A stretch of 43,664 bases of DNA, from the NCBI GenBank assembly GCA_015231755.1, contig JADGAZ010000022.1, forward strand, positions 1 to 43,664. Direction: 5' to 3'. The notes under the pieces are model-generated. The model saw only the letters and a list, made by a program, of their open reading frames with translations. It ran no database searches and was not told where the DNA came from. A program made the position numbers and the translations under genes. Positions 8,201-25,865 of this stretch are shown here, one piece after another. The stretch is from Magnetococcales bacterium (GTDB lineage: Bacteria; Pseudomonadota; Magnetococcia; Magnetococcales; Magnetaquicoccaceae). The stretch's first letter is position 1. The number at the start of each line of letters is the position of its first letter.

Positions 8201-10336
8201 GCGCATCTCCACGGCGGCGGCGTCTCCATCCATGCCCGGCATGCGCCAGTCCAGCAGCACCCGGGTGAAGGGAATCCCCTGGCCGGTGTTGCAGGCCAAC
8301 AGCCGTTCCACCGCCTCGGCCCCGGATGATACCACCTCCGGCTCCAAGAATAGCTCCTTGAGCAGTCCGACCAGGGAGTCGCGCACCTCCGGGTTGTCAT
8401 CGGCCACCAGCACCCGTTCCCCCCACATGGATTCGGGCAGCATGATGTTCTTGCGGCGATTCTGACCGTGCAGCCCCACGCAGGCCTCGAACCCGAATTC
8501 ACTCCCCTGACCGGGAACGCTGTTGGCCCACATCCGTCCGCCCATCAGGGAGACCAGCCGTTTGCAGATGGACAGCCCCAGACCGGTGCCGCCGAATTTG
8601 CGGGTGGTGGAGCCGTCCGCCTGTACAAACGGGGCAAACAGATTGGGTAGAATGGCCGGATCCACCCCGATGCCCGTATCCCGCACCCCGCAGTTCAGGC
8701 AGACCCGTTCCTCCTCGGCGAGTCTCGGGGTGAGGGTCACGGTGATGCTGCCTTGCTCGGTGAACTTGACCGCGTTGCGGATCAGGTTGATCAGCACCTG
8801 TTCCAGCCGGATCACATCCCCGAACAGCACCGTGTCGAAATCGGCGGGAATCGAAAAGATCAGTTCGATCCGCTTGTCGGCCACCTGCTTGCTGAACAGA
8901 TCGGCGAGCCGTTCCACCAGCAGATGCAGATCGAAGGGGACCGGATCCAGGGTCATGTGACCCGCTTCCAGTTTGGAAAAATCCAGCAGATCGCTGATGA
9001 TCCCCATGAGTGAGCGGGAGGCGTTTTCGATTTTGCTCACATAATCCCGCACCCTCGGGGCCAGTTCGGCCTTGAGGGCCAGTTCGGTGAAGCCCAGCAC
9101 GGCGTTCATCGGGGTGCGGATTTCGTGGCTCATGTTGGCGATGAAATCGCTTTTGGCCACATTGGCCATCTCCGCCACGGCCAGGGTCTCTTCCAGGGAC
9201 TTGACCAACTGTTTGCGGTCGGTGACATCTTGCAAGAAGCCGGTGAATTGCAGTTTGCCCTCCTGGACCACGGAGGTCAGGGAGATTTGCAGATCGATGG
9301 TCTGACCATTCACCCGCAGACCCGGATGCTCCATGCGTCGTCTGAGCCGGGGCGCCTGAATCCCTTCGGCCACCACTTTTTGCAAGGCGTTCCGGTGGGC
9401 GGCGCGCAACGGCTCGGGAATGATGAACTCCCCGATGGGTCTGCCCAGTATCAATGCCTTGGAAAAACCGAACAACTGCTCTGCCGCCGGATTGAACTCC
9501 AGCACCCGGCCCGCGTCATCCGTGGTGATGATGGCGTCCAGGGCGTGGCTCAAGATGGCCTGATGCCGATCCAGCAGACGGGCGATGTCGTGATAGCGTT
9601 CGATGTTTTCGATGTTCTGGTAGACCCGGCAGAGCAGTTCCTCGGGCTGATAGGGCTTGACCAGAAAATCGTTGGCCCCGGCCTTGATGAACTGGGCGGC
9701 CAGATCCGCGTTGCCATAGGAAGAGAGGCCAATGGCGGCCACATCGTTGCGGGAGTGGGCGGCCCGCAGCTTTTGGATGAATTTCACCCCGTCCATGCCG
9801 GGCATCTGGTAGTCGGTGATCACCAGATGCACGACCTGTTCCCTCAGAATCTGGAGGGCGCTTTCGCCGTCTTCCGCGTCCATCAGGGTGAATCCATGGC
9901 GTTCCAGAAAACGGCACAACACCACCCGGGCGCTGCGGGAGTCGTCCACCACCAGGATGCGGGCATTGCGGTTTTTCTGGATGCGGTCGATGGCGTGAAT
10001 CACCGAATCCACCACCCGCGGGTTGTCCTTGATGAAATAGTCCAGCAATCCTTTTTTGAGGCAGGTTTCCCGCAGATCGGGCTTGAAGATGCCGGTCAGG
10101 GCAATGGAAGGGATGGCGTTGGCCACCAGCAGATCGACAATCTCTCCATCCGGAGCGTCGGGGAGATTCAGATCCAGTATGGCCAGAAAAAACCGTTTCA
10201 GATGGGCCTTGAGGATCGCGTTGGCTTCGGCGAGGCTTCTGGCCAGCATCACCTCGACCCCTAGAGCCTTCTGGATGCGGGCTTTCAGCAAGGAGGCGAA
10301 GCTGCTGGAGTCTTCAACGATCAGAATGGTGTTCAT
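5273..10336 (-). CDS. Giant double-core hybrid histidine kinase (6 REC, PAS, 2 HisKA/HATPase, Hpt)
   Basis: 1687 residues without a membrane segment. Domains in order: REC1 (1-120, Asp55), REC2 (126-242, Asp175), PAS (about 255-375), HisKA1 (His404 in SHEIRTP), HATPase1 (about 505-620, NAVKFT and GGTGLGLS), REC3 (640-765, Asp696), REC4 (796-910, Asp847, without the usual acidic pair), Hpt (about 945-1040, His990 in [11 protein letters not shown]), REC5 (1152-1268, Asp1200), HisKA2 (His1317), HATPase2 (about 1418-1530), REC6 (1566-1687, Asp1615). Both kinase cores keep the phospho-acceptor His, N box and G boxes, so both look active. GGAG lies 8 bp before the ATG. It is the last gene of an operon with two HlyD-type adaptors (20 bp gap). 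No output domain is present, so the phosphate must go to a separate partner. Confidence 0.9.
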
Positions 10337-12467: not shown

Positions 12468-12719
12468 GGGTCCCTCTTTTTATGAAGGTAAATCTTCACG
12501 GAAAAAATACCGCTCATTGCCTGTGATCGGTCTTTAGCATAACCGATTTTTCAGCAAATGTATGGACGATAAATGGACTGAATCGACTGAGAACCGTTAC
12601 GCTTCGTGACAGGTTCTGATATGCTGAATCCAGTTTGACACCCGCATCATTCTTTCGATCGGGTGAGGCCAATCACCATCGACCCTTTGCTGCGGAAGGA
12701 CCGAGGCTCCAGATCCGTC
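12468..12719 (+). promoter_or_regulatory. Divergent intergenic region with a small inverted repeat
   Basis: These 252 bp separate the adaptor-kinase operon (minus) from the GGDEF-EAL gene (plus), so both promoters should lie here. An inverted repeat ATCGGT (12526-12531) / ACCGAT (12542-12547) followed by TTTTT on the plus strand could be an operator or a weak hairpin. A TTGACA occurs on the plus strand near 12633 but has no convincing -10 box at 17 bp. Promoter positions are not settled. Confidence 0.35.
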
Positions 12720-15248
12720 ATGTCCATGCGATTTCAGTTTATTGTGTTGTTTGCCGTACCACTGCTCGTCGGAGTGGGATGGATCGCGGCCCTCTCTTTC
12801 CACTGGACCGAACGGGCCATGGTGGAAAGCGCGTTGCTCGCCATGGATCAATCCAATCTGGCCGTGGTCCGGGAGATCGACAACGGTTTGGAACGCAATG
12901 CCAATCTTCCGGGTGATGGTTCCCGGCCCGCTGCCCATCCGGTCGATGGCCCCCTGACGGAAGGGGCCGGGATCTGGTTGCAAGATGTCTTGCGTCGTAT
13001 GGCGGGGCATCGGGATCCTTTTCTTCATGTCCTCATTTTAGACCCCGCGGGACGGGTGATCGCCGACAGCCTGCGGGAGACCCCCTTGCAGGCCGGTTCC
13101 AGTCCTCAGGAGTCCGTCGGGGCGCAACGGGAGCCGGATTTTCCCTCTGCCGTCGCCCTCCACGCCTCGGAGCGGTGGAAATCCATCCTGGAACGGATGC
13201 GCACTGGCGCCAGCGGCAGCGACTGGTTTGAAGAGGCGGGAGAACGTCACCATGTGGTCTTTCATCCCCTGCCGGCCTTGGTGGGTTGGAGTGTCGTCCA
13301 GGTGCGTCCCCATCATGCCCTGGTGTCGGGTGGTCGCAACAGCCTCAATGAATTGCGTCTGGCTCTGGTCCTGATCACGGTGGCCACGTTGCTGCTGGCT
13401 GTGGCCTTGATCCGCAACCGGGTGGGACGGATCGTCACCCCCTTGACCGACCTGACCCGCGCCATGGACCTCATGGCTCAAGGCTCCCTGGACTTTTTTC
13501 GGCGTGTCCCCGAAAAGGGAGAGGACGAAGTCGCCCTGCTGGCCCGCACCTTCAACCGCATGCTCGCCACCCTCGACAAAAACACTGATGCCAAGGTCTA
13601 TACCGAGCAGATCCTCGGAGCCATGGTGGATGGCTTCTTGGTGCTGGATCGGGAAATCCGCATCCAGCGGGTCAACGTCGCCCTGGTGACCCTGCTGGAA
13701 GAAACAGAGGAAAAACTGATCGGACGCCATCTGGACGCGCTGCTTCCGGATCCCTCTTTTTGCGCGATCATGTATCGGGATCTGCTGTCCGACCGTCAGT
13801 TTCGTTTTCAAGAGACGGTCTTTCTCACCGCCGATGGCCGTCAGGTGGCGGTTTCCATCTCCAGCAGCCTGTTGCGCCAGGATGACGAGATCGTGGGCAC
13901 GGTCATTTTGGTGCAGGATATCCGTCAGCGCAAACGCAACGAAGAACAGCTCCATTTTCTGGCCAATTTCGACGTGTTGACCCATCTGCCCAACCGGTCG
14001 TTGCTGGTGGAGCGTCTGAGTCAATCCCTGGTGCGGGCGCCCTGGCGCAACACCAGTGTGGGGCTGATGCATTGCGCCCTGGACCGCTTCAAGACCATCA
14101 ACGAAACCTTGGGACACCGGGCCGGGGATGAACTTCTCAAGGAAGTCGCCAACCGCCTCCAGTCCAACGTGCGGGAGGGGGATACGGTGGCCCGGGTGGG
14201 CGGGGATGAATTCCTGATTCTGCTCAAGGACATGGCCCGCGCCGAGGATGTGATCCATCTGGCCAGGAAAATCTCCAACGCCATCGCCATGTCCGTCACC
14301 TTGTCCAATGGGCAGGAGGTGTTCATCACCGCCAGCATCGGGATCAGTCTGTTTCCGGAAAACGGCACCAGCACCGATGAACTGCTCAAGAATGCCGATC
14401 TGGCCACCCAGTTTGCCAAGGCCCAGGGCAAGAATCAATTCAGTTTCTTCTCGGCGGAAATGAATCGCAAAGGCGCCCAGCGGCTGTCGATGGAGCGGGA
14501 TTTGCGCCGGGCCATCGAGCGGTGTGAACTGGAGGCCCATTATCAACCCCGCTGGGATTTGAAACAGGATCGGCTGGTGGGGGCGGAGGCTTTGGTGCGC
14601 TGGCGCCGGGGGGGCGAAAAACTGGTTTCCCCCGGGGAGTTTTTACCTTTGGCGGAAGAGTTGGGACTGATCGAGGCTATCGATTTATGGATGGTGCGGG
14701 AGGTGTGTCGTCAGGCGCGGCAATGGTTGGATGCGGGACGACCCCCGTTGCGCCTGTCGGTCAATCTGTCCCACCATCTGTTTGGTCGCACCGATCTGGT
14801 GGAGGTGATCCGGCAGATCATCACCGAAAGCGCCCTGGAACCCCATGCCCTGGAACTGGAGTTGACCGAAGCCATCGTCATGCACGACGTGGGACACGCC
14901 ATGAACGCCCTCCAGGCGTTCCGGGAGATGGGGATCCATCTGGCAGTGGACGATTTTGGCACCGGCTACTCGTCGTTTTCCCATTTGCGCCGTTTGCCGG
15001 TGCATGTGCTCAAGATCGACCGCTCCTTCGTGCGGGAGATCACCACCCATCGGGAGGACGCGGCCATCACCCACGCCATCATCTCTCTGGCCCACACCCT
15101 GGGGCTGCGGGCCACCGCCGAAGGGGCCGAGGAACAGGCCCAGCGCGATCTGTTGACCCGTTTGGGGTGCGACGAGTTGCAAGGCTATCTGATCAGCCGA
15201 CCCCTCCCCGCCAAGGAGATGGAAGAGCGGTTCCTTCCGAAAGGATGA
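12720..15248 (+). CDS. Membrane GGDEF-EAL c-di-GMP enzyme with HAMP and PAS
   Basis: About 842 residues. Membrane helix 1 (about 5-25), a periplasmic sensor region of roughly 185 residues, membrane helix 2 (about 212-232), HAMP, PAS (about 300-410), GGDEF (about 425-590) and EAL (about 600-835). The cyclase domain has an intact RVGGDEF and an RxxD inhibitory site (REGD) five residues before it. The EAL domain keeps GAEALVRW, the Asn of SVNLS, ELTEA, DDFGTGYSS, LKIDRSFV, AEGAEE and LQGYLISRP. Both activities are therefore plausible. A GTG at 12663 would add 19 residues; ATG 12720 fits the membrane-helix start better. It is convergent with the CZB gene (26 bp gap). Confidence 0.9.
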   Translation: MSMRFQFIVLFAVPLLVGVGWIAALSFHWTERAMVESALLAMDQSNLAVVREIDNGLERNANLPGDGSRPAAHPVDGPLTEGAGIWLQDVLRRMAGHRDPFLHVLILDPAGRVIADSLRETPLQAGSSPQESVGAQREPDFPSAVALHASERWKSILERMRTGASGSDWFEEAGERHHVVFHPLPALVGWSVVQVRPHHALVSGGRNSLNELRLALVLITVATLLLAVALIRNRVGRIVTPLTDLTRAMDLMAQGSLDFFRRVPEKGEDEVALLARTFNRMLATLDKNTDAKVYTEQILGAMVDGFLVLDREIRIQRVNVALVTLLEETEEKLIGRHLDALLPDPSFCAIMYRDLLSDRQFRFQETVFLTADGRQVAVSISSSLLRQDDEIVGTVILVQDIRQRKRNEEQLHFLANFDVLTHLPNRSLLVERLSQSLVRAPWRNTSVGLMHCALDRFKTINETLGHRAGDELLKEVANRLQSNVREGDTVARVGGDEFLILLKDMARAEDVIHLARKISNAIAMSVTLSNGQEVFITASIGISLFPENGTSTDELLKNADLATQFAKAQGKNQFSFFSAEMNRKGAQRLSMERDLRRAIERCELEAHYQPRWDLKQDRLVGAEALVRWRRGGEKLVSPGEFLPLAEELGLIEAIDLWMVREVCRQARQWLDAGRPPLRLSVNLSHHLFGRTDLVEVIRQIITESALEPHALELELTEAIVMHDVGHAMNALQAFREMGIHLAVDDFGTGYSSFSHLRRLPVHVLKIDRSFVREITTHREDAAITHAIISLAHTLGLRATAEGAEEQAQRDLLTRLGCDELQGYLISRPLPAKEMEERFLPKG

Positions 15249-15274: not shown

Positions 15275-16102
15275 TCACCGCCCCAGCAGATTGATGGGGG
15301 AGGCCACCTCTCCGGATTGCAGAAAAGCCAATTCGATCCGCGTCAGCAGATACAAAACCTCCCGCCCCAGATTGACCACTTCATTGAAGACATCTTCGGA
15401 TCTGCGGAAATTTTTCCGGCGCAACAAACGGATGGTCTCTTCGGCCCTGGTGTGGAACAATTGGTGCTTTTCATCCAACTCTTGAACAATGCCAATGATT
15501 CTTTTGCTTTTGAGTCCCACTTCCTGGATCCATACCCCCACACTGCAAACATCGGAAGGTTCCAAAGTCGAATCCTTGCCCCAGTGCTGGAAGGCCCGCA
15601 GCAGTTGACGGGACCAACGCAGGTGCATCAATCGGGCATGACTGACCTCCAGAACCCCCCGTTTTTCGATCTCCCCTGAATCGGGGATGTGGATGTTGAA
15701 CAAACGATGGATGAAACTCTTGACCGGATGGGCGGAAAAATCGCTCAAGGGTTTGTGTTCCAGGTAATCCAGTTCCGCTTCGGTGATGAAATAGACGATA
15801 TCGCGGCTCAGGCTGCGTACCCGGTTCATCTCCCGTTCGATGTTCTCCTCCGAATCCATGGCAATCAACGAGACCAGACGATCGGCGGCTTGATGAAACT
15901 GCTCGTGCACCCCCACCAGACGCCGCACCGGATCCAGATGGTACAACTCCCGGATTCCGTCTCCATGCAGCCATACGCCCAGTTCACAATCCACATGGGA
16001 GGTCAGGTGGATCGTTTTTCGATGCTTTTGGACCATTTCTTCCAGTTCGGATTCCCAAAGCACATGGGCCATGCGGGCGATGCCGAGATCTACCTGATTC
16101 AT
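15275..16102 (-). CDS. Tandem CZB (chemoreceptor zinc-binding) domain protein
   Basis: 275 residues from the ATG at 16102. Two CZB-type four-helix domains are visible. Domain 1 has His13 (HVLW), Cys39 (CELGVWL), His66 and His70 (HEQFH). Domain 2 has His160 (HLRW), Cys186 (CSVGVWI), His213 and His217 (HQLFH). These are the 3His/1Cys zinc ligands of the family, complete in both. CZB domains sense zinc or oxidants such as HOCl and are usually fused to chemoreceptors or diguanylate cyclases; here they stand alone without an output domain. An upstream in-frame ATG at 16207 is less likely because conserved sequence begins at the later start. It is the last minus-strand gene of the cassette after mamT. 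Confidence 0.8.
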   Translation of the reverse strand: MNQVDLGIARMAHVLWESELEEMVQKHRKTIHLTSHVDCELGVWLHGDGIRELYHLDPVRRLVGVHEQFHQAADRLVSLIAMDSEENIEREMNRVRSLSRDIVYFITEAELDYLEHKPLSDFSAHPVKSFIHRLFNIHIPDSGEIEKRGVLEVSHARLMHLRWSRQLLRAFQHWGKDSTLEPSDVCSVGVWIQEVGLKSKRIIGIVQELDEKHQLFHTRAEETIRLLRRKNFRRSEDVFNEVVNLGREVLYLLTRIELAFLQSGEVASPINLLGR

Positions 16103-16148
16103 TGCGTGTATCCCGTTGAATGGATGGAGTGTTGAGCATGGATGGAGA

Positions 16149-16340
16149 TCATTGGGAACCCTGGGGATCTTTTTTCCGATGGTGGTTTCCAACGGTTTGT
16201 GGAGCATTGGCCATCGTGTTGAACCACGTGTTCTTGCCGGAGTGGGCCAGACCCATGATCACCAGAACAGGGGCGCAGTCGGCCTGCTTCCAGGAAACCG
16301 GAAACGGCAGAAGCGTGGTGGTGAGGGTGCTGACAGACAT
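16149..16340 (-). pseudogene. Truncated P-loop NTPase/GTPase-like gene
   Basis: A 63-residue open frame starts at ATG 16340 with AAAGGAG 6 bp upstream, a strong ribosome-binding site. Its middle reads VLVIMGLAHSGKNTWFNTM, a hydrophobic strand followed by a Walker A-like loop (GLAHSGKN) and helix, as in small Ras/Arf/MglA-type GTPases. The frame stops 20 residues later, before any G2-G5 motif. A normal domain needs about 170 residues, so this looks like a 5' remnant of a gene whose rest was deleted or replaced up to the CZB gene. A genuine 63-residue protein cannot be excluded. Confidence 0.55.
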
Positions 16341-16373
16341 CGGTACTCCTTTGGATGCGACCGGTTGCCACGG

Positions 16374-18398
16374 TTATCGGATTCCGACGGTTTTGGCGAT
16401 GTAGCCAACCGAAACCGCTGAAATATCCCGCAGATGATGGATTCCGTCGGGAGTCTTTTTGACCACTTTGCTGATGCTGACCCCCTTTTTGGTGCTCTTC
16501 GAGAAGGGATCCCAGAAGGCCGCCGGCACCACCACGGTTCCATCCTGACCGAATTCAAACAGATACGCGATTCCCCGATCAACCTGAAACACAATCCTGA
16601 TTGCGGAGATGGAATCGGGAGTGATGGTAAACTGATCCTCGGGCCGGAAGGCGGTATGTCCCATCATTTGGGCAATCGAGAACAGCACATCTCCATCTTT
16701 GTTGCGTTCGTAGGTCAAACCACCTCGCACGGTCCCCTTGGCGGGGGTGATTTTCAGGTAGGGCTCCTGAAGCAGGCGGTTGATGGGTAAATGATATTTG
16801 GCAAACCGCACCTGAAACGGAGCCGTGCTGTTTGGATCCTTGTCGGTCTGTTCCGCCGTCGCGGGTTTGGTTTCCTTGTTGGCTGGAACCTTGGAGTCCG
16901 CATCCGCCACCACGGTTCCCTTGGCCGTTGGGGTCTCTTTGCCAGAGGGGGCTGTGGCGGGAGACGGGGTTTCCGGCTTGGACATGGCTTGGTTAGCCGC
17001 CGGGGTCTCCTTGCCAGGGGTGGCCGTGGCGGGAGACGGGGTTTCCGGCTTGTTGGTAGGCGTGGCGGCGGCTTGGGTCTCCGCTGGCAACGCCGGCGCC
17101 GGTTTGGACTCAGGCGTCGCTGCGGTGGTGGATTGGGGGGCCGGTACGGTTGTCGGGGCGGTGGTGACGGGTTTGCTGTCTTCTGTCGGCGGACGCACCG
17201 CAGCCGGGGGGGCTGGCTGGAGGGTGACCGGGGCGGCGGGTGCGGGGGATGCGCTTTTGGACTCCGTTACCAGCACCGGCGGTTTGGGCGCGGGATCCGA
17301 TACCTTGGCAACCGTGGTCACCTGGGTTTGGGCAACAGGGGCAGGGGGCGTGGGATCCACGGGCCGCCCCAGGACCACCCAGACCGATGCCGCCACCAAT
17401 AGGCCCCCGGCGGCGATGCCACCCAAGGTCCGAAGATGCTGCCGCTTGCGTTGGAGTTGGCGTTCGTTTTCGAGGAGCACGGCTTGTCGTTGTTTTTCTT
17501 GCTCCTGATCTTCCAGCGCCAAGCGTTGCCGTTTGATCTCATCCAGATGCGCTTGACGGATGCGGTCTTCGATGTCTCCCAGTTGTTCTTCCTCTTCGTA
17601 CACCTCCGGTTCCGGCAGATCGTCGGATTCGGGGTCTTCCTCAGGAGCCGGCGAGAGGTCCACCAGCTCGATTTTTTTCATCTCTTCCGGGATCGGCAGC
17701 AAAACAATCCGTTCGGAAGGCAGTTGGGACAATCCCAACAGCAGATCCTGCTGCAACACCGTGGAAACCAGCAACCGAACCACACCCACCCGGATGCCAT
17801 CACGCCAGTCGATACGATGGCCCAGATCCGGCAGCGACGCCACCAGGGTGCCGACCACCTGGACCGCCTCTTTGACCTCGTTGAATTTTTTCCGATTGAC
17901 CTCCGGAGTGCCGGAGAGGGGAATGTGGATTGAAAAGAAATGCAGTCCTTGAAGCACAGCCTGTGATACGGCCTGGGGATAATGCCGGAGATCAAAATGG
18001 GGGGGATCGCTGTAAACCGCCAGAATGGCTTGAATGGCAACCGTTTCCGAATCGATGGAAATCGCTTCGCACGCCGTCACGTCATTCAGCAATTGTTGCA
18101 GTTTTTTCAATCCGGACAGCAGCACCTGAACGCTTTCCGGCTGGACAAAAATCATGGCTTCCCGCATCCGGGTAATCAGGGATTCCATGGATTGACTCAA
18201 CGAGACGATGTGCGTCAGATCATGAAAAATGGCCGAACCACCAATGCCACGGATGGTTCTCAATAAGGAATCCAGGACGTTGGCACCGGTGGTTGGATCC
18301 CCATCCATCAGGGAGGGCACCTGTGGCAGGATCGCGTCCAGGCGTTTTTGGGCTTCTTGAACGAGCAGCTTGACTTGAGAAAGATCGGTATCCAACAT
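16374..18398 (-). CDS. Membrane protein with degenerate CheA-like Hpt domain, coiled coil and Pro/Thr-rich linker
   Basis: 674 residues. Residues 1-115 resemble a CheA-type Hpt helical bundle (LLRTIRGIGGSA, then LSQSMESLITRMRE), but the phospho-acceptor His is replaced by Arg50. Residues about 125-235 form an alpha/beta-looking domain of unknown type. A charged region (ESDDLPEPEVYEEEEQ) and coiled coil (about 265-320) lead to one membrane helix (about 323-345). A Pro/Ala/Thr/Lys-rich linker (about 350-520) with repeats follows, then a C-terminal domain (about 525-674) that I do not recognise. The topology suggests a cytoplasmic N-terminus and a periplasmic or magnetosome-lumen C-terminus. GGAGG lies about 8 bp before the ATG. 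Confidence 0.75.
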   Translation of the reverse strand: MLDTDLSQVKLLVQEAQKRLDAILPQVPSLMDGDPTTGANVLDSLLRTIRGIGGSAIFHDLTHIVSLSQSMESLITRMREAMIFVQPESVQVLLSGLKKLQQLLNDVTACEAISIDSETVAIQAILAVYSDPPHFDLRHYPQAVSQAVLQGLHFFSIHIPLSGTPEVNRKKFNEVKEAVQVVGTLVASLPDLGHRIDWRDGIRVGVVRLLVSTVLQQDLLLGLSQLPSERIVLLPIPEEMKKIELVDLSPAPEEDPESDDLPEPEVYEEEEQLGDIEDRIRQAHLDEIKRQRLALEDQEQEKQRQAVLLENERQLQRKRQHLRTLGGIAAGGLLVAASVWVVLGRPVDPTPPAPVAQTQVTTVAKVSDPAPKPPVLVTESKSASPAPAAPVTLQPAPPAAVRPPTEDSKPVTTAPTTVPAPQSTTAATPESKPAPALPAETQAAATPTNKPETPSPATATPGKETPAANQAMSKPETPSPATAPSGKETPTAKGTVVADADSKVPANKETKPATAEQTDKDPNSTAPFQVRFAKYHLPINRLLQEPYLKITPAKGTVRGGLTYERNKDGDVLFSIAQMMGHTAFRPEDQFTITPDSISAIRIVFQVDRGIAYLFEFGQDGTVVVPAAFWDPFSKSTKKGVSISKVVKKTPDGIHHLRDISAVSVGYIAKTVGIR
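16930..17052 (-). repeat. 72-bp direct repeat in the Pro/Thr-rich linker
   Basis: A near-identical 51-bp segment occurs at 16930-16980 and again at 17002-17052, a 72-bp (24-codon) period. It encodes KPETPSPATA followed by a GKETP motif. The period keeps the reading frame, so the linker can vary in length. Confidence 0.8.
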
Positions 18399-18442
18399 GG
18401 CAAGACCTCCAGGCCGGGGAAAGGCTATAATTATTTGTGTTG

Positions 18443-19378
18443 CTAGGAAAATTTGAAGAAATTATCAAATTTCATATGGTCGAACGCCATTCGGACATGG
18501 GGGCTGCAATGGATGATCGATATATCCCGTCCCTGGTTTTCACGATTGTACTGGTTCAGCAGCAACATGGTTCCGAAGGCCGCTTTTCCGATGTGTACGG
18601 TGTCCTGGAAATCAAGAATGTATTTTGTCTTTCCGGAACGCCCGCGGTAGATTTTCGCAAAATTGTTTCTGCAATTGTAGTCAAACATTTTGGCGATCCG
18701 AATGGTGACCGTGACTTGTCCATCCGCGTCCTGTGCAACGCTGACTTTGAACTTGTGGGCTTCGTCCTCGTCGGAATCTTCAGCCAGGAGGGTGATATTG
18801 ATGCCCGGAATATCCAACTGTGACAGGGTATTGAACACCTCTTTGTTGCAATGGGAAATCTGTATAGTGTCGCGTTCCCCCTGGTTGTGGGCTTCCAGGT
18901 GCAGCAGCATGGCCAATCCCGAGGCCGTAACGCTGGTGACATTGGCAAAGTTGAAGCGATACCGCCAGGACGGGGGTCTGTCTTGGTAGATCTTGATGAA
19001 ATCATTCCAGAATTCGGCACTGAAATCCCCCCGGAAATGGACGATAGTTTCCATCTGGGTATGATCGATAAACTTGATCCCACTGCGGGAGGATTCGATC
19101 AGTTTCGGGAATACGCTTTTTTCTTCGAGCGTCACCAAAGAGATTCCGGTTTTGGTCACCCGTGCGACCGAGACCTTTTCTTCGAGGGGTACCCCCTCCA
19201 ACACGAATTTCAGGACACCTTTCTGGCCCACTTCAATGGGATACTGGGTTGGCAGCACCAGAAACAAGGCATGGGTGTTGACATCCAGCGCATTGCCGGA
19301 ATATCCGTTGAACTCCATGGGCAGTCCACAAAAGACCCGGTCATTTCTTCTTCTGTTGGTTGCGATTGCCATGGCCAT
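18443..19378 (-). CDS. PilZ-like plus two STAS-like domains
   Basis: 311 residues. Residues 1-95 resemble PilZ: an RRRNDR motif near the N-terminus and a beta-rich region, but the second PilZ motif (D/N-x-S-x-x-G) reads DVNTHA, so c-di-GMP binding is uncertain. Two STAS-like halves follow (about 105-200 and 210-311), each with the hydrophobic strand-loop-helix signature (NFANVTSVTASGLAMLLHL and LDFQDTVHIGKAAFGTMLL). The second lacks the usual loop Ser. The ATG at 19378 is 1 bp after the receiver gene stop and has GGGGAG 6 bp upstream, so the two are probably translationally coupled. A scaffold or anti-sigma-antagonist-like role is inference. Confidence 0.65.
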   Translation of the reverse strand: MAMAIATNRRRNDRVFCGLPMEFNGYSGNALDVNTHALFLVLPTQYPIEVGQKGVLKFVLEGVPLEEKVSVARVTKTGISLVTLEEKSVFPKLIESSRSGIKFIDHTQMETIVHFRGDFSAEFWNDFIKIYQDRPPSWRYRFNFANVTSVTASGLAMLLHLEAHNQGERDTIQISHCNKEVFNTLSQLDIPGINITLLAEDSDEDEAHKFKVSVAQDADGQVTVTIRIAKMFDYNCRNNFAKIYRGRSGKTKYILDFQDTVHIGKAAFGTMLLLNQYNRENQGRDISIIHCSPHVRMAFDHMKFDNFFKFS

Positions 19379-19379
19379 T

Positions 19380-19796
19380 TCAAGTCTCCCCACCGATATG
19401 ATCCGGGATCAGATTGAATTTACGTAGTTTTTCCAATAAGACCTGCCGCGTGACCGGTTTGGTCAGATAATCCGAACATCCCCCCTTGAAATAGGCCTCC
19501 ATGGCCTGCAACGAAGAATCCATGCCGGTGACCATGATGACGGGGGTCTCTTTGGCGTCCGCCGCAATCCGTTTTTCGGCGGCCCGAATGCGGGTCAGGG
19601 TCTTTTGACCATCCATCACCGGCATGATGATATCCAGCAACACCAGATTGTAAGGGTCACCATCCTCCAAGTCGGCAACGAACAATTCCAAGGCAGCCTT
19701 GCCATCGCTGACCATGTCGCAGTGGGCATATTCTTTCAGGTAATCTCTCAATAATTTTCTATTGTTCAATTCGTCATCAGCGATTAAAATTTTCAT
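19380..19796 (-). CDS. Single-domain response regulator (CheY-like)
   Basis: 138 residues, receiver domain only. The acidic pair (IADDE, residues 5-9), phospho-acceptor Asp55 (LVLLDIIMPVMDG), the Thr/Ser position (VTGMD) and conserved Lys (YLTKPV) are all present. The start at 19796 has GAAGAGGA about 8 bp upstream and overlaps the kinase stop by 20 bp. It is the likely acceptor of the neighbouring kinase and could act as a CheY-like diffusible output. Confidence 0.88.
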   Translation of the reverse strand: MKILIADDELNNRKLLRDYLKEYAHCDMVSDGKAALELFVADLEDGDPYNLVLLDIIMPVMDGQKTLTRIRAAEKRIAADAKETPVIMVTGMDSSLQAMEAYFKGGCSDYLTKPVTRQVLLEKLRKFNLIPDHIGGET

Positions 19797-22700
19797 GTTT
19801 TTGGTCCTCTTCAATCAGGAAGTGAATGAGACTTTCCACATACTGTTCCAGGTTCCGGCACATCATCAACGCATCTTCCCACGCTTCCGTTTCCACTTGT
19901 CCAATCATTCGGATGGTTTGGGTGACGATACGAGAGGCGCCAATCTGGGCGGCCATGGATTTCAGCCATGTTCCTTCCCGAATCACGGTGCCGGAATTTT
20001 CCTGCATTAATGATTTTTTTAATTTTTCCAGATGCTCGAATGCCTCTTTGATGAATGACTGTTTCAGGATGATCAGATTGGTCGGATCCGTTTCCACGGG
20101 GTTCAGAACAATCTCCCGGTTGACGGGGGGTTGGCCGGTTTTTCTTTTTTTGGAGAACGAGGCTACAATGTTGATCAATTCGATCGGCAGGTAGGGCTTC
20201 AGCAAAAAACCATTCATCCCCACTTCCAGACATCTTTTTTTTTCGTTCATCATGACCATGGCGGTCACCGCCACAATGGGCACCTGTGGATCGCCAACCT
20301 CTTGTCGGGAACCCGAACGAATGCGCCGGGTGGTCTCGAACCCATCCATTTCCGGCATCTGCAAATCCATCAGGATCAAATCGAACCGTGCGCCCTTTGT
20401 CAGTATGAGCAGGGCTTCCACGCCATTGCTGGCCACCGTGACCTTGTGGTCTTGTGTGTGCAGAATGTTCATGGCCAACTTCTGGTTTTCCGGCAGATCC
20501 TCCACCAGCAAGATTTCCAGAGGTTGAATATCCGTTCTTTTACGCAGTGGTTCGTTTTCTTCGTATTTGTGATTCGGTTCGTTCAGAACCGGGGAGATGA
20601 TATGCAGAATTTTCTTAAGAAGATGCTGATTCCTGATGGGCTTCTTCAATGAGATCGCATTCTTGAAGAGACCTTCCAGAATGAAATTACGCAAGGAAAG
20701 ATGCGAAGAAATCATCAGGATGATTTTGTTCGAATAGGCGGGATAGTGCGCTTCATCGATCAAACCGGCTTCGGCTTCCTGCACGATCTCTTCATCCACC
20801 ATGATGACATCAAAGGGATTGTCGCTGTGTGTCCGCATGCAATCCATCATGGCTGGCGCATGCGAGACCATTTCCACAGAGGCGCCAAAATGCAACAACA
20901 GACTGTGGAGGATGGCGCGCCCGGTGGGATGGTTGTCCACCAACAAGATGCGTCGATCCTGAAGGGGAGTCGGGTGGGATTGGTATGCCTCCGGGCCTTG
21001 TTTCATCCAGGAGTCCGCCACCGGATCCTGTCGGCTCAAACCGAGTCGAATGGTGAAATAAAACATGCTCCCGTGTCCAACCTGACTTTCAACCTGTAGG
21101 CTTCCTCCCATCAAATAAACCAGATGTTTGGAAATGGTCAGACCCAGACCCGTTCCGCCATATTTGCGGGAAATGGAGCCATCCGCTTGCACAAAACTTT
21201 GAAAGATCAAATGCAGTTGTTCATCCGGGATGCCGATGCCGGTATCCGAGACGGAAAAGCGCACATGAATGGCATCCTCGGGGGCTTTTTCCAGGGGGGC
21301 TTCCCGTTGGACCGAGAGGACTATTTCGCCTTCGTGGGTGAATTTGATGGCATTGTTGATCAGGTTCACCACAATTTGTTTCAGACGCAGCGGATCCCCG
21401 TCCAGCAGGGCCGGCAGATCCGGGGCGATCTGACAATAAAATCCTAAGCCCTTCTGGTGGGCCTTGATGGCCAACATGTCGCAGGCGTTTTCCAACTGAC
21501 CCACTAGGTCAAACGGGACATACTCCAAGGCGAAGTGACCCGCCTCGATCTTGGACAGGTCCAGAATGCCGTTGATGAGATCCAGCAGGGATAACGAAGA
21601 GGAACGCACAATTTGCAGATTGCTGAAGATTTCATCTTTGGACAATTGGGCACTTAAAACCAGATCGGTCATGCCGATGATGGCATTCAAGGGACTTCTG
21701 ATTTCATGGCTCATGTTGGCCAGAAATTCACTTTTGGCTTTGCTGACCGCTTCCGCTTTTTCCCGCGCGTCTTGCAACTCCTGGTCGATTCTGGAACGCA
21801 CAATGATATTGGCCAGGGCCTGACCAATGGAATTGAACATCAGATTGTCAAAAATCTCCTTCATGATGGAACTGGAAACCACCAGTCTCAAGATGCCAAG
21901 ATTCTCGTTGCCGGAGAACAGCGGGATGCAGTAATCGATTTTCCCTTCCATTTTTTCCTGGATTGTCATGTCGGAACCCAGAGAATAAACGCTCATCATG
22001 GGATCGGAAAACATGGAAACAATGCAAGAGGAACACTCGTCGGAAACGTTTGTGCATTGATGCTGCTGCGGAAAACAGTTGTCCGGCTCTTGCGCCACCA
22101 GATTGAAGCCGTTCGTGACGCGATCCCATAAAAAAATCGCTACGTGAATGTTTTCGGAAGCCAGCCAGGGCAGCCTGACAATAAAACCAAGGGCGCGCTG
22201 CAACTGCTCTTGCAGGGAGCGGGTTTCCAGGGAGAGATGCAGCAGATGATTGACCGTTTTCTGGGTCTGCAAAGAGATGGTGGCGTTGCGTTCGGAACTG
22301 CGTACCCGATCGATTTCAATCATTTTGTCTTTGAAGCTGTTTTCCGCGACCAGCAAGGTGTCCTTCAATGCCAAGGAGAGCTGTTTGTAGGCCGTGATAT
22401 CGCGAATGCTGGCCACACAATGAATCACACCGTTGATCAGAGTCAGGAACAAGGAGAGTTCCAGATCAATCCGGGCGCCATTGGAATGCAGTCCTTGCAG
22501 GAAAATTCTTCTCAGAAAACGCGGTGTCAGATTGGGTTGTTCCCGCAGCGCTTTGATGCCCTTCTGATGGGCGAAACGGAACTCCGGAGGAATGATCAGC
22601 TTGGCAATATCTTTGCCGATGACCTCATCGCGGGAAAATCCGAATAACTCTTCCGCGGATTGGTTGAAGACGATGATCCGATCTTGAAGATCCGTAATGA

Positions 22701-23178
22701 TCAGCGCGTCCAGACCGTAATCGATCAGACTGCGGGCCAATCCTTCCAGTTTATGGGAACTGCCCATCGCACAGGACAGACCTTTTGAATCCGTGTTCCG
22801 CAGCACATTGAAATCATGCACGCGTTGGAGCAACAGAAACGGTTGAACCGGCAAATAGATGAAATCGTCCGCTCCGCATTCCATGGCGCGGGCTTCCGAG
22901 GTGATCATGTAATAACGGGAGAAAAGAATGATTGGAATGGTGCAGGAGGGTTCTTCGGACTTCAGTTGATGGCAGATTGCGTAACTATCAAAGTTCCGGA
23001 TCGTGATATCCAGGAAAATGACCAATGGTGATGGCGATTTTTTGGCAAGACGGAGAATGGCCTCCGCGCTTTCGATACCCTCGACCCGGTATCGGCTGGA
23101 CAGGATACTTTTGGGAGAACCCGGTTCCTCATGTTGCGCGTCGGCAATGAGGATCGTGGCGGTTTCATTTTCCAACAT
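19777..23178 (-). CDS. Hybrid histidine kinase REC-PAS-GAF-HisKA-HATPase-REC-REC with degenerate Hpt
   Basis: About 1133 residues from the ATG at 23178 (GGAGGGGG 3-5 bp upstream). Order: N-terminal REC (Asp57), PAS (about 130-270, LDALIITDLQDRIIVFN), a GAF-like domain (about 320-460) that is Cys-rich (CFPQQHQC, ECSSC), HisKA (His491 in SHEIRSP), HATPase (GGTGLGLT), a diverged REC, a canonical REC (Asp938 in LMDLQMPEMDG), and a C-terminal helical region that aligns with Hpt (TWLKSMAAQIGA) but has Thr1070 where His is expected. No membrane segment is apparent. It overlaps the upstream gene by 14 bp and the downstream receiver gene by 20 bp. Confidence 0.87.
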   Translation of the reverse strand: MLENETATILIADAQHEEPGSPKSILSSRYRVEGIESAEAILRLAKKSPSPLVIFLDITIRNFDSYAICHQLKSEEPSCTIPIILFSRYYMITSEARAMECGADDFIYLPVQPFLLLQRVHDFNVLRNTDSKGLSCAMGSSHKLEGLARSLIDYGLDALIITDLQDRIIVFNQSAEELFGFSRDEVIGKDIAKLIIPPEFRFAHQKGIKALREQPNLTPRFLRRIFLQGLHSNGARIDLELSLFLTLINGVIHCVASIRDITAYKQLSLALKDTLLVAENSFKDKMIEIDRVRSSERNATISLQTQKTVNHLLHLSLETRSLQEQLQRALGFIVRLPWLASENIHVAIFLWDRVTNGFNLVAQEPDNCFPQQHQCTNVSDECSSCIVSMFSDPMMSVYSLGSDMTIQEKMEGKIDYCIPLFSGNENLGILRLVVSSSIMKEIFDNLMFNSIGQALANIIVRSRIDQELQDAREKAEAVSKAKSEFLANMSHEIRSPLNAIIGMTDLVLSAQLSKDEIFSNLQIVRSSSLSLLDLINGILDLSKIEAGHFALEYVPFDLVGQLENACDMLAIKAHQKGLGFYCQIAPDLPALLDGDPLRLKQIVVNLINNAIKFTHEGEIVLSVQREAPLEKAPEDAIHVRFSVSDTGIGIPDEQLHLIFQSFVQADGSISRKYGGTGLGLTISKHLVYLMGGSLQVESQVGHGSMFYFTIRLGLSRQDPVADSWMKQGPEAYQSHPTPLQDRRILLVDNHPTGRAILHSLLLHFGASVEMVSHAPAMMDCMRTHSDNPFDVIMVDEEIVQEAEAGLIDEAHYPAYSNKIILMISSHLSLRNFILEGLFKNAISLKKPIRNQHLLKKILHIISPVLNEPNHKYEENEPLRKRTDIQPLEILLVEDLPENQKLAMNILHTQDHKVTVASNGVEALLILTKGARFDLILMDLQMPEMDGFETTRRIRSGSRQEVGDPQVPIVAVTAMVMMNEKKRCLEVGMNGFLLKPYLPIELINIVASFSKKRKTGQPPVNREIVLNPVETDPTNLIILKQSFIKEAFEHLEKLKKSLMQENSGTVIREGTWLKSMAAQIGASRIVTQTIRMIGQVETEAWEDALMMCRNLEQYVESLIHFLIEEDQKHENFNR

Positions 23179-23755
23179 GCGCCCCCTCCGCAATACTTTC
23201 CACCGCATGAGAAAGACCGAAGGTGACTACATAAGGGATGATATGTTTTTCCGACCCGATTTTGATCTCAAACAATCCACGGCGGGAGGTTTGTTTCCAG
23301 ACCACCCGATACCGGACCATGAATCCGGGATCGGTGGAAAAATTGATCTTGACCCGGCGGGTGATCTGGGTGCCAAACTCGATATGCAGACTTTTTTTCA
23401 ACTCTTTTTGAACCATGCTTTCCAGTATGATCCAAAGGGAGGCCTTGAAATGGTTGCCGAAAGACTGTTGATCGGTGATGGACAGGCTGATGTTGGCCGT
23501 CCGGGTGAATTCGTGCTCGCTGCTTAACACCTTGTTGCCGTAGCGATTGTCCAGGGGGACTTCCTCGGTGGCCAGCACAATGGAATCTTCTCCAATAATG
23601 CTTTCGCGCATGAATTCGATGGTGGAAGAGGCGGTTTCCGGCAGCCGCTCCAGCGGGGGACGGTCAAAGGTTTGATCGGCGATGATCGGAATGTATTTCT
23701 TGCCCAGCAATCCGCCAACCACGGCAGCCACACCATAGGGAATGAGTTGAAGCAC
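23165..23755 (-). CDS. Small protein with N-terminal hydrophobic anchor, function unknown
   Basis: 196 residues from the GTG at 23755, chosen because GAGGAGG lies 5 bp upstream; the longer frame from 23815 has no such site. The N-terminus (LIPYGVAAVVGGLLGKKY) is a glycine-rich hydrophobic segment that could insert in a membrane. The rest is predicted beta-rich with alternating hydrophobic residues (FTRTANISLSITD, HIEFGTQITRRVKINFS). I do not recognise the family. It sits between a coiled-coil gene and the hybrid kinase, which it overlaps by 14 bp, suggesting a shared role. Confidence 0.65.
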   Translation of the reverse strand: MLQLIPYGVAAVVGGLLGKKYIPIIADQTFDRPPLERLPETASSTIEFMRESIIGEDSIVLATEEVPLDNRYGNKVLSSEHEFTRTANISLSITDQQSFGNHFKASLWIILESMVQKELKKSLHIEFGTQITRRVKINFSTDPGFMVRYRVVWKQTSRRGLFEIKIGSEKHIIPYVVTFGLSHAVESIAEGAHVGK

Positions 23756-23825
23756 GGAAGCCTCCTCGGATTGATGCTGGTATGGTGGATTCCAATAAGA
23801 ACAACACGTTGGCACACAATAAAGG

Positions 23826-24740
23826 CTAGACGCCCGGTTGCAATGCTTCCAATTGTTTCAACTGTTCGAGGTATTCCATGTGTTTCATCAGTTCCATTTG
23901 TTTGATGCGATCCATTTGCACTACATGGTCTTGATGCATGCGACGCATTTCTCCCAGGAAGTTGGGGAAATCTTCGTGGAGTTGGGCCATCAGATCATGG
24001 GCCTGGACAATGGTTTCCAGATTGCCGCGAAACAGTTGTCCGACATTCTGGAACGGCGTCACCACAATTTGCAAAGCCTGCTGGGTGCGTTCAAAAGAGG
24101 CCTGACATTTTTCAATCTCCTTGCCGACATTTTGCAGCATTTCGGAGATTTCGCGATCCGTTCCGGAACGGTTGCCGCTGAGCATTTCATTCAGTTGCAG
24201 CAAGGCATTGTTTTTCATCTCCTCGGCCTGACGCCCTTCTTCTTCGAGCATTTCGATCAGGGGCTTCAGATAAATCATGATGCGAGGATCAATACGCTTC
24301 TCCAGGGTCTGGAGAATGGTGCTTTGTTGCGTCTGGAACTGGTTGAACAGATCCGGAACCTGGGACAAAACCTCCAGGTTTTCCGCCATGGGAGAGGCGA
24401 CCGCAACCGGAGTGCTGCCGGCTTTTTCGATCAGTTTGGCCATGGATTCCTGCAGATCGGATACATCTTTGCGAACCGCCGCCAAGCCGGCTTTCATCTC
24501 TTCGGCGATGACCGACTTGGCCGATTTGGCAAAGGAGGCGCCATCCGACAGGCTGTCCGCCTTGCGCATGAAACTGGTGATGGCGGCAGCGGTAGTTTCA
24601 ATCTTGCCGAGCTTCTCATCCAAACTTTTGACATGAACCGCTGTCGAAAGATGTACCTCCACCACCTTCTTCAGCAGATCTTCCATGATGGTGATCCGGT
24701 TCTGGAGTCCCGCGTCTGAAGACATGACGTGTTGAGGCAT
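23826..24740 (-). CDS. Coiled-coil protein directly after mamT, function unknown
   Basis: 304 residues, almost entirely helical with heptad-like spacing (IMEDLLKKVVEVHLS, KSLDEKLGKIET, VSDLQESMAKLIEKA). The C-terminal about 45 residues are rich in Met, His, Gln and Leu (MRRMHQDHVVQMDRIKQ, then MELMKHMEYLEQL). No membrane helix or signal peptide is visible. It starts 20 bp after the mamT stop with AAGGAG 9 bp upstream of the ATG, so it is probably transcribed with the mam operon. It resembles the signalling helices of chemoreceptors in composition only; no family is claimed. Confidence 0.65.
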   Translation of the reverse strand: MPQHVMSSDAGLQNRITIMEDLLKKVVEVHLSTAVHVKSLDEKLGKIETTAAAITSFMRKADSLSDGASFAKSAKSVIAEEMKAGLAAVRKDVSDLQESMAKLIEKAGSTPVAVASPMAENLEVLSQVPDLFNQFQTQQSTILQTLEKRIDPRIMIYLKPLIEMLEEEGRQAEEMKNNALLQLNEMLSGNRSGTDREISEMLQNVGKEIEKCQASFERTQQALQIVVTPFQNVGQLFRGNLETIVQAHDLMAQLHEDFPNFLGEMRRMHQDHVVQMDRIKQMELMKHMEYLEQLKQLEALQPGV

Positions 24741-24760: not shown

Positions 24761-25276
24761 TTATTTGATTTGTACATACACCAAAATATCATGACATTTG
24801 ATGCATCTCCCCGAAGGGGGATGGGGTCGGGTCGAGTTGGGCATGATCGGCGGTCCGACTTTGTAATAGGCGGACACCTGTTCCCAGACTTTGGCAACCG
24901 GGGTGGCAGGTTGACTGCCCGGCGGTGCTCCTCCCCGAATCAAATGACAATTGGTACACGGTCCCCAGGAGGGGTGGGGCATCTTGGCTCCTGGCTCGAT
25001 GGTGGGAATGCGCTTGACCAGCATTCTTTGCAACGAGTTGGACGGTGGATTGACCAGTTGCAGCACCGGTTCTTGCAAAGAGGGTTGAGTCGGCTTGGGA
25101 ATGGATCCAAAAACCTCTCCTTCAACCTGTGAGGTGGGTTCATCCGTGAACAGGGTGGACCACAAGGATGCGCCCTTGTCCGATCTCCACAGGAGGCCCA
25201 ATCCAATCAAGGCGATCAAAACGATCACTGCAAGAGTGGCCCAGCGGCCGGAGGTGTTGGATTGGGTACCGTTCAT
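24761..25276 (-). CDS. mamT: MamT, magnetosome protein with two magnetochrome (CXXCH) motifs
   Basis: 171 residues. A single N-terminal membrane helix (LAVIVLIALIGLGLLW, about residues 15-31) anchors a periplasm/lumen-facing domain. Two c-type haem motifs, CTNCH and CIKCH, lie in the C-terminal third, each preceded by the P-H-P-x-x-G-x-C pattern typical of magnetochromes. In MamT these are known to affect crystal growth, presumably through iron redox. The ATG at 25276 is 7 bp after the mamS stop; a longer frame overlapping mamS is not preferred. Confidence 0.88.
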   Translation of the reverse strand: MNGTQSNTSGRWATLAVIVLIALIGLGLLWRSDKGASLWSTLFTDEPTSQVEGEVFGSIPKPTQPSLQEPVLQLVNPPSNSLQRMLVKRIPTIEPGAKMPHPSWGPCTNCHLIRGGAPPGSQPATPVAKVWEQVSAYYKVGPPIMPNSTRPHPPSGRCIKCHDILVYVQIK

Positions 25277-25283
25277 CGCCCGC

Positions 25284-25865
25284 CTATCGCAACTTGTTGG
25301 ACCAAAGAGCAAAGCCTTCATCATTGCGCAGTTGACACAGTCTGCCGTTGATGCGAATCCGCTTGGCGTAGATCAGGGGAGACGTGCCGTTTCGTTCAAA
25401 CGAAAAACCCGAGCCATCCACCGCGACATCATGGGCCAGCGGACAGCCCAGATATTTGAGAAACCAACCCGGTCCCACGGAAATACGCATTTCCTGGCCA
25501 TTGGCGCCGTTGATCCACAGATGCAGTTGCCCATCGCTTTGGGGTTGTTCGGAAATCTGTTGCACGGTTCCGGCGAATTTGACCGTGGGCGACTGCTGCA
25601 ACAAAACCAGACCGGAAGCCCCGGCTCCGGCGCCATCGGTGGGGGTGCGGGCGGCGGCCACGGGAATCATGCGCAACGCCTCTTGTCCTGGCGGTTTCAA
25701 CAGGGCGTTGGTCCCCACCTGAGGGGTGGTGGCCGCAACGGGAAGCGTCTGGGGTTTGGTGGGTTCCCAGAACCGGTCCGGCAACAACGACGCGACCATC
25801 ACTCCAACCACAAAGACCATGCCGGCAACCACGATCCATTCGCCAGGTTCCATCGACCGTTTCAT
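25284..25865 (-). CDS. mamS: MamS-like magnetosome protein
   Basis: 193 residues. One N-terminal membrane helix (WIVVAGMVFVVGVMVASLL) is followed by a Pro/Ala-rich linker and a C-terminal beta-rich domain (VKFAGTVQQISEQ, LHLWINGANGQEMRISVGPGWFL). This agrees with MamS, which in Magnetospirillum is needed for normal crystal size. Its place between mamB and mamT matches the conserved mamQ-B-S-T order, which supports the name. Gaps are 12 bp to mamB and 7 bp to mamT. Confidence 0.82.
   Translation of the reverse strand: MKRSMEPGEWIVVAGMVFVVGVMVASLLPDRFWEPTKPQTLPVAATTPQVGTNALLKPPGQEALRMIPVAAARTPTDGAGAGASGLVLLQQSPTVKFAGTVQQISEQPQSDGQLHLWINGANGQEMRISVGPGWFLKYLGCPLAHDVAVDGSGFSFERNGTSPLIYAKRIRINGRLCQLRNDEGFALWSNKLR

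Follow-up and report, generated by a model that had tools for sequence, protein, structure and literature searches.

Directly behind mamT, the last gene of the mam operon, a cassette of eight genes for signalling and associated proteins lies in the magnetosome island of a Magnetococcales bacterium. This report describes the cassette gene by gene and follows it through the genomes of the order, in which it recurs in many freshwater magnetic cocci, is inherited with the mam operon and is linked to a distinct pair of genes (ZorA and ZorB) for a Zorya-type rotary motor, a kind familiar from defence against phages, and it offers a hypothesis on what such a combination may do for magnetosomes.

The cassette and its genes

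The window, i.e. the whole stretch of 43,664 nucleotides that was analysed, comes from contig C22 of a draft genome of 3.84 Mb that is 97.84 % complete (genome G000; G and L numbers denote the genomes and loci of the comparison). Its mam operon is on the minus strand, with MamK, M, N, O, P, A, Q, B, S and T named by NCBIfam, MamO and MamQ scoring under the curated cut-offs. Eight open reading frames (ORFs) follow mamT from 24740 down to 15275, all on the minus strand (Table 1), and the coordinates, short gaps and overlaps that the preliminary description had reported for them were confirmed. Between the mamT stop (24761) and the start of the coiled-coil gene cc (24740) there is a gap of 20 bp; the gap from cc to the anchored-protein gene anch is 70 bp, given an anch start at the conserved MLQ codon (23755). 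The hybrid kinase gene (HK; start 23208) overlaps anch by 44 bp, the lone receiver gene (RR) overlaps HK by 20–38 bp depending on its own start, and the PilZ-STAS-STAS gene overlaps RR by 14 bp; a gap of 44 bp then leads to the gene for a membrane protein with a degenerate Hpt domain and a transmembrane (TM) helix, here termed Hpt/TM, and one of 33 bp to a small P-loop ORF (16340–16149). For the final gene, encoding a tandem CZB protein, a start nearer 16102 (275 amino acids, aa) is more likely than one at 16207, because ortholog alignments favour it. Promoter-like and terminator-like sites occur at the level of shuffled sequences (6 versus 6.5 and 17 versus 15.0, respectively), and neither kind was found on the minus strand at the mamT–cc junction; the cassette and mamT may be carried on one transcript.

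Table 1. Genes of the cassette, the Zor unit of the same genome and comparable loci behind mamT
Feature	Position	Strand	Evidence or remark
mamT, last gene of the mam operon	24761..25324	-	NCBIfam NF040992, 215.9 bits (cut-off 200)
Coiled-coil protein cc, 304 aa	23826..24740	-	Directly after mamT in 19/48 genomes
Anchored protein anch, 196 aa; N-terminal helix and elongated beta domain	23165..23755	-	Fold model, pLDDT 79
Hybrid histidine kinase HK, soluble	19777..23208	-	Pfam; alignment of 16 orthologs
Lone receiver RR	19380..19796	-	PF00072, 1.6e-20
PilZ-STAS-STAS protein	18443..19393	-	Fold model, pLDDT 88.5; STAS and PilZ structures among the Foldseek matches; motifs compared in 16 orthologs
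Hpt/TM membrane protein	16374..18398	-	CheA P1-like Hpt without His, one TM helix (read from sequence), Pro-rich region, conserved C-terminal domain
feoB 5' remnant, 63 codons	16149..16340	-	Aligns with the start of the intact G036 FeoB
Tandem CZB (zinc-binding) protein, 275 aa	15275..16102	-	PF13682, two stretches
ZorA of the window's genome	C22:44416-48303	+	PDLC00605, 4.7e-46
ZorB of the window's genome	C22:48314-49282	+	PDLC00610, 3.2e-65
ZorC of the window's genome	C22 ~49279-50553	+	EH_Signature; C-terminal Hpt 2.2e-5, 25.0 bits (cut-off 24.6)
mamT-linked ZorA/ZorB-like loci	L057 (G037), L059, L058, L098, L066, L062		ZorB carboxylate changed to Glu or lost

The domain calls made at the outset were right, namely those of the CZB, receiver, kinase, PilZ/STAS/STAS and degenerate Hpt proteins. 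Pfam reports the tandem CZB (7e-14), Response_reg, and HisKA, HATPase, PAS and three REC domains in HK, and places Hpt under its cut-off both in HK (4.6e-5) and in the Hpt/TM protein (0.094). The domain order of the kinase is degenerate REC, PAS, GAF-like region, HisKA, HATPase, degenerate REC, intact REC and an Hpt that lacks its His ('soluble' and 'GAF-like' being readings of the sequence). Besides the start of the CZB gene, a second point to correct is the truncated P-loop gene, which is a 5' remnant of feoB: it matches the start of the FeoB of G036 with 44 % identity over 64 columns (E 1.7e-13; 50 of 65 bases at the DNA level), and at the same place G036 has, inside its cassette, an intact FeoB of 661 aa (PF02421 1.8e-36) together with a regulator of the DtxR type that includes a FeoA domain. 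With its 63 codons, the stretch 16149–16340 does not contain the complete GTPase and membrane domains of FeoB.

Distribution and inheritance with the mam operon

The comparison drew on 48 Magnetococcales genomes and on a wider sample of 398 genomes from the phylum. A mamT match was present in 47 of the 48, only weak, like other magnetochrome proteins, in G005, G016 and G024; the DNA downstream of mamT was compared in 43 relatives, leaving out these three, and in the window for G000. Sought across these genomes, conserved synteny next to mamT was found in 19 of 48 (G000, G006, G015, G017–G022, G027–G034, G036 and G044), where cc and then anch lie directly behind mamT, and the genes keep the same order in relatives of several families, the opposite of a cassette residing mainly in non-magnetotactic relatives away from mam genes. 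The full set of cc, anch, HK, RR, STAS, Hpt/TM and CZB genes is present in 13 of the 19 carriers. The cassette runs into contig borders in G015, G019 and G031, is rearranged in G018 and is without the CZB gene at the locus in G017, and a gene for a 305-aa protein with a receiver lies between Hpt/TM and CZB in G020–G022.

On a tree of joined MamB, MamS and MamT sequences from 44 genomes (branch support, SH-aLRT), the 19 carriers fall on one side of a single branch, i.e. one change (SH-aLRT 99), and none of 500 shuffles gave a number as low, which bears out the initial view that the run extends the mam operon. The split also cuts across host groups. G044 carries the cassette and its seven congeners do not; its MamB is 49–53 % identical to theirs versus a mean of 80 % to those of the other carriers, and the mam tree pairs it with G015, a member of another family. 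Within the window's own family, G023, G025, G026 and G035 are without the cassette and group with the non-carriers. Because a single change on the mam tree accounts for its presence and because it cuts across host groups, the cassette is seen to travel together with the mam genes. Purifying selection acts on all seven intact cassette genes, mostly at the level of mamS and mamT: dN/dS is 0.04–0.33 for them (window versus G030 or G036; undefined for CZB versus G036) and 0.02–0.17 for mamB, mamS and mamT in the same comparison, with Hpt/TM the highest and RR the most constrained of the cassette genes (0.044 and 0.078).

The full-length PilZ-STAS-STAS protein was found in 18 of the 398 phylum genomes, all Magnetococcales, a 19th match (G025) being partial with 92 positions. 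The anch protein is present in 45 of the 48 genomes of the order, often on mam contigs, and in 45 of the 398, confined to the order; when named genomes were scanned by pattern, anch turned up at 36 loci, 33 of them from records named Magnetococcales or UR-1. Two loci from bins labelled Thiotrichales, L131 and L138, have anch, STAS and Hpt/TM genes, L131 also having mamB, mamS and mamT with cc behind mamT, and in a gammaproteobacterial bin (L155:3118-7168) two genes that are MamK-like by eye are followed by a relative of anch; the set therefore moves with magnetosome genes.

Zorya-type motor genes in the magnetosome island

The link to Zorya-like motors is invisible from the window alone. A distinct, island-type class of ZorB (MAI-class; 309–322 aa, set by score and length) occurs together with ZorA in 16 of the 19 carriers and, by the same measures, in none of the 29 other genomes. 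It is on the mamT contig in 11 of the 16 and on another contig in G017, G019, G029, G033 and G044. In a ZorB tree of 29 hand-picked rows, not all matches, the class forms one side of a branch (SH-aLRT 99) and pairs G015 with G044 as the mam tree does; long branches affect both the mamT-linked class, described below, and G006, so that the placement of each is unsure. The ZorB carboxylate is Asp in all 16 island and all seven canonical proteins, and Pfam OmpA matches island ZorB under its cut-off only. ZorA of the window's genome fits the MotA-like channel with a long tail that marks this family (PDLC00605, 4.7e-46). Of the 16 loci, all but that of G019, which ends too early, include ZorC, with EH_Signature in 15 of 15 and a C-terminal Hpt that reaches E 0.001 in nine (Pfam). 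In the window's genome the Zor unit begins ~750 bp past the window end (L113), and a CDF transporter gene similar to MamB follows ZorABC (C22:44416-50553). At and just past the window end there is a simple-sequence tract with a run of masked bases (G000:C22:43528-43920, also in L113). A second ZorB-class gene, of the canonical type, lies near a contig end of the same genome (G000:C1:307567-308259; L119), and genomes of families f6 and f14 have ZorB-like proteins of ~390–430 aa.

In several genomes the Zor genes join the cassette. In G006, which branches deepest among the carriers in the mam tree as drawn, they form one run, mamT-cc-anch-RR-STAS-Hpt/TM-ZorA-ZorB-ZorC; in G032 and G027, ZorA overlaps the CZB gene and is followed by ZorB, ZorC and a receiver gene; and in L131, Hpt/TM, FeoB, DtxR and ZorA come in succession with larger gaps (only ZorA being reached). 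The simplest history would be that cassette and Zor genes once formed one unit behind mamT that was later split in most genomes.

A second type of island, that of MC-1-type cocci, has ZorA/ZorB-like genes behind mamT and no cassette. In G037, G038, G039, G003, G013 and G007, the gene after mamT encodes a protein of 469–2222 aa whose N-terminal part matches PADLOC ZorA1 (best E 3e-18, 8.7e-22, 9e-19, 1.8e-13, 1.6e-20 and 7.5e-22, respectively). A ZorB1-like protein comes next in G037 (5.8e-27), G038 (6e-27), G039 (1.6e-30), G013 (2.5e-33) and G007 (1.4e-45), with anch following it in G037–G039 and G007; in G003 the ZorB1-like gene is on a separate contig, beside anch. Of six mamT-linked ZorB proteins, four have Glu as the carboxylate and two, those of G007 and G014, have none.

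The C-terminal tail of these ZorA-like proteins also resembles cc, the first cassette protein. A hidden Markov model (HMM) of cc matches the tails of G038 (30.7 bits), G037 (26.5 bits) and G007 (18.8 bits), the best of 126 shuffled or reversed control sequences reaching 6.2 bits, and positions 195–268 of cc align with the end of the mamT-linked tails in hhalign with P 95.2, E 2.6e-8 and 27 % identity over 74 columns. That cc is the split-off tail of the carriers' own ZorA was ruled out (whole-protein HMM E 0.5 or worse; hhalign P 5.5), as was a phage protein (best PHROGs value 0.0014 against the match to the ZorA tails). For anch there was no Pfam match above cut-off, no PADLOC or PHROGs match and no sequence match in the PDB (best 0.64). 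The fold model comes closest to elongated beta folds of the aerolysin type (VIA Z 8.5, rmsd 4.7, 136 aligned), a middling likeness, with Foldseek TM-scores below 0.4 for the best rows, and no function is inferred from the fold.

Kept and lost sites in the signalling domains

Throughout the 16 orthologs compared, the kinase keeps its His, the glycines of the ATP site, and the Asp and Lys of its last receiver. The lone receiver keeps its motifs. At the far end of the presumptive relay the picture is one of loss: the phospho-accepting His of the kinase's own Hpt is present in three of 16 orthologs and lost in 13 (Thr in the window), Arg stands in place of the Hpt His of the Hpt/TM protein in 15 of 15, and ZorC has lost its Hpt His in 10 of 15. 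A complete phosphorelay within the cassette of the window's genome was rejected as unlikely, the Hpt His being lost in both HK and the membrane protein, so that the phosphorelay coupling envisaged in the preliminary description is unlikely to take the form of a complete relay there. Residues 7–126 of the Hpt/TM protein share 36 % identity with the N-terminal part of the CheA encoded in the same genome (G000:C4:52053-52412). A CheA cluster, L108:8036-15030, has CheW-like, MCP-like, STAS and receiver-PP2C-HATPase genes, and its CheA N-terminus resembles the Hpt/TM protein.

The zinc ligand motif of CZB domains consists of three His and one Cys. All 13 orthologs compared have retained the ligands (His/Cys/His/His) in each of the two domains, and zinc/redox sensing by the tandem CZB protein is plausible because of this conservation. 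In PilZ domains, binding of cyclic di-GMP relies on two motifs, RxxxR and D/NxSxxG. The first is present in all 16 orthologs of the PilZ-STAS-STAS protein and the second, in full, in none, the window included. To locate the STAS phospho-sites, the sequences were compared by eye with the single STAS protein of the genome; the first domain has Ser at this site in three of 16 and Ala, Pro or His in the other 13, that of the window among them, and the second domain has Ser in none. A role as cyclic di-GMP receptor or partner-switch antagonist is not claimed for this protein, given the loss of the second PilZ motif and of most STAS phospho-sites.

Neighbouring genes in the window

On the plus strand, a gene for a GGDEF-EAL protein (12663–15248) converges with the CZB gene, the two stops being 26 bp apart. 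Further from the cassette, and outside it, a minus-strand gene at 5273–10336 encodes a hybrid kinase of 1687 aa that combines two kinase cores with six receivers and one Hpt. Near the other end of the window, also on the minus strand, is a Gly/Ala-rich protein with internal repeats (42588–43463), which we take to be MamD-like; similar ORFs occur near the Zor genes in some relatives.

A proposed role and its alternatives

The reading favoured here, to which we would give a probability of about 0.45, is that a motor of the Zorya type forms the core of a complex encoded in the magnetosome island, and that the cassette provides its arm for signalling and adaptor functions. The inheritance of the genes with the mam operon and their linkage to a distinct ZorA–ZorB pair are observed; each functional step of the model is one that we infer. 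Binding to peptidoglycan, the flow of ions and the tail of ZorA all play a part in defence by Zorya (PMC11890865). ZorA5ZorB2-like motors in the inner membrane would grip the peptidoglycan and use ion flow, and cc, as a separate module resembling the last part of a ZorA tail, would dock on them at the membrane together with anch, the PilZ-STAS-STAS scaffold and the Hpt/TM protein. HK would phosphorylate the lone receiver, which in turn may act as a reversible plug by binding to the Hpt domains, mostly devoid of His, of ZorC and the membrane protein; that the receiver would read or block the tail and adaptor proteins of the motor is proposed because of the roles of tail and ion flow in Zorya, the kept kinase and receiver sites, and the lost Hpt His. 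The tandem CZB protein may supply a zinc/redox input, and FeoB and DtxR, where present, may supply iron. The most likely output would be the positioning or anchoring of magnetosomes in cells that have neither MamJ nor MamY, both of which are reported absent from this group, in which magnetosome placing without them is an open question (PMC6783814). For that question, ZorAB-type genes, a tail-like protein and a His-less Hpt are now named candidates. It is a more doubtful proposition that a peptidoglycan-anchored, ion-driven motor of the Zorya type was recruited as a magnetosome machine, with its effector swapped for a phospho-signalling and scaffold module, to give a rotary motor that is tied to the organelle and serves to sense or place magnetosomes. 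If true, a phage-defence motor, or its ancestor, would be at work in organelle biology, and Zorya-type motors would be tied to two-component signalling.

A number of observations weigh against this reading. With regard to linkage, no MAI-class ZorB was found in the carriers G021, G031 and G034 (completeness 91, 88 and 57 %); 22 of 48 genomes are without a ZorB match (E 1e-14 or better) on the mamT or anch contig, including five with MAI-class loci on separate contigs; and the Zor unit of the window's genome, although on the same contig, is separate from the cassette and oppositely oriented, so that co-regulation is not given. With regard to mechanism, an Hpt His is present in ZorC of five of 15 and in HK of three of 16, so that the docking-plug idea is not universal, and six of 15 ZorC proteins fall short of E 0.001 for Hpt. 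The cc HMM misses G003 and G039 and finds only weak pieces in G013 (16.0 bits in total, best 9.0), single pieces of the carriers' own ZorA reach up to 9.2 bits with it, and coiled-coil likeness can mislead. The set is not rigid either: HK and CZB are both absent at the locus in G006 and look dispensable, neither has a match in the piece of L131 examined, and ~860 bp separate cc and anch in G015. Finally, the mam tree requires 12 changes to account for the host families, a weak measure given that the minimum for 12 families is 11; because this count alone says little, the case for co-inheritance rests on the split of families f14 and f1.

It is rather unlikely that the cassette is instead a chemosensory add-on that tunes magneto-aerotaxis, in which HK, the receiver, the CheA-derived P1 domain and CZB would feed flagellar chemotaxis and the Zor genes would be a separate matter. 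CZB domains occur in chemoreceptors. The likeness of the Hpt/TM N-terminus to the genome's own CheA, whose cluster also has a single STAS protein, fits such a role, as does the published reading of 'chemotaxis proteins' (PMC6783814). However, Pfam finds no CheW, MCP or CheA kinase core in the cassette proteins (MCPsignal for cc, 0.35), the P1 His is lost in every one of the 15 proteins compared, and the Zor genes join the cassette repeatedly.

The matches to the ZorA1, ZorB1 and ZorC1 models, along with the canonical ZorB-class gene on another contig of the window's genome, would suit a different explanation, that the Zor genes, and perhaps the cassette too, are an island-borne phage defence that helps to keep the magnetosome island. 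This is distinctly unlikely. A ZorD-like gene was seen in none of the 16 fetched MAI-class loci (limited flanks) but in five of the seven canonical Zorya loci of these genomes (two of the five by model), the other two stopping near contig ends; PADLOC ZorC1 covers positions ~1–310 of 462 in the two ZorC proteins scanned, which are thus not alike over their full length, and most island ZorC proteins carry Hpt beyond; and ZorB tracks the mam lineage.

Control of iron supply, with CZB, HK and DtxR-FeoB adjusting uptake for magnetite, is less probable still. Iron genes do recur: besides the intact feoB and dtxR within the cassette of G036, MAI-class Zor genes adjoin feoB in G028, feoB and dtxR in G029 and G022, and dtxR in G020, a FeoB-like gene lies at a distance from them in G027, and FeoB and DtxR lie between Hpt/TM and ZorA in L131. 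Yet feoB is a mere remnant in the window, G030 leaves no space for it at that spot, and no connection with iron is known for most of the cassette proteins. That the genes are bystanders carried with the island, as the coming and going of some members might suggest, is very improbable in view of the purifying selection, mostly at the level of mamS and mamT, the gene order fixed over large divergence and the match to the mam lineage.

Comparison with published accounts and known systems

The preliminary description knew of no magnetosome gene set of this composition, a statement that no longer holds, since the set has been in print since 2019, when the genes that come after mamT in strain UR-1 (Ca. 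Magnetaquicoccus inordinatus) and its relatives were described by Koziaeva and co-workers (PMC6783814). The UR-1 contig in our comparison (G020:C525) is the same locus as RXIU01000008 of that work; the gene order is shared by WMHbinv6, YD0425bin7 and WMHbin3, and a role in clustered magnetosomes was suggested (PMC6783814). In the available portion of that account, the gene directly after mamT (by position, cc) is called phage-related, the EH-signature, MotB and apolipoprotein genes of the island are listed without a link to Zorya or the cassette, and the gene set is noted and not dissected (PMC6783814). Searchable full texts, outside which most subscription journals lie, included no paper with both 'magnetosome' and 'Zorya'. 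As far as that literature reaches, the domain anatomy with its lost phospho-sites, the spread, the co-inheritance and the feoB remnant are new, as are the ZorC–Hpt fusion and the linkage of both island types to Zorya-like motors.

Compared with Zorya type I, the island genes match the ZorA1, ZorB1 and ZorC1 models and keep the ZorB Asp, but the fetched island loci are without ZorD, their ZorC mostly has a C-terminal Hpt, a receiver follows ZorC in G027 and G032, and the setting is a magnetosome island. With hybrid two-component phosphorelays the cassette shares a kinase whose HisKA, HATPase and last REC keep their motifs, as does the lone receiver; it differs from them in that, in the window's genome, the Hpt domains of both HK and the membrane protein have no His. 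Finally, chain positioning by MamJ, MamY and MamK in Magnetospirillum would be the same job as that proposed here, namely the placing of magnetosomes, whereas the proteins of the cassette are other ones.

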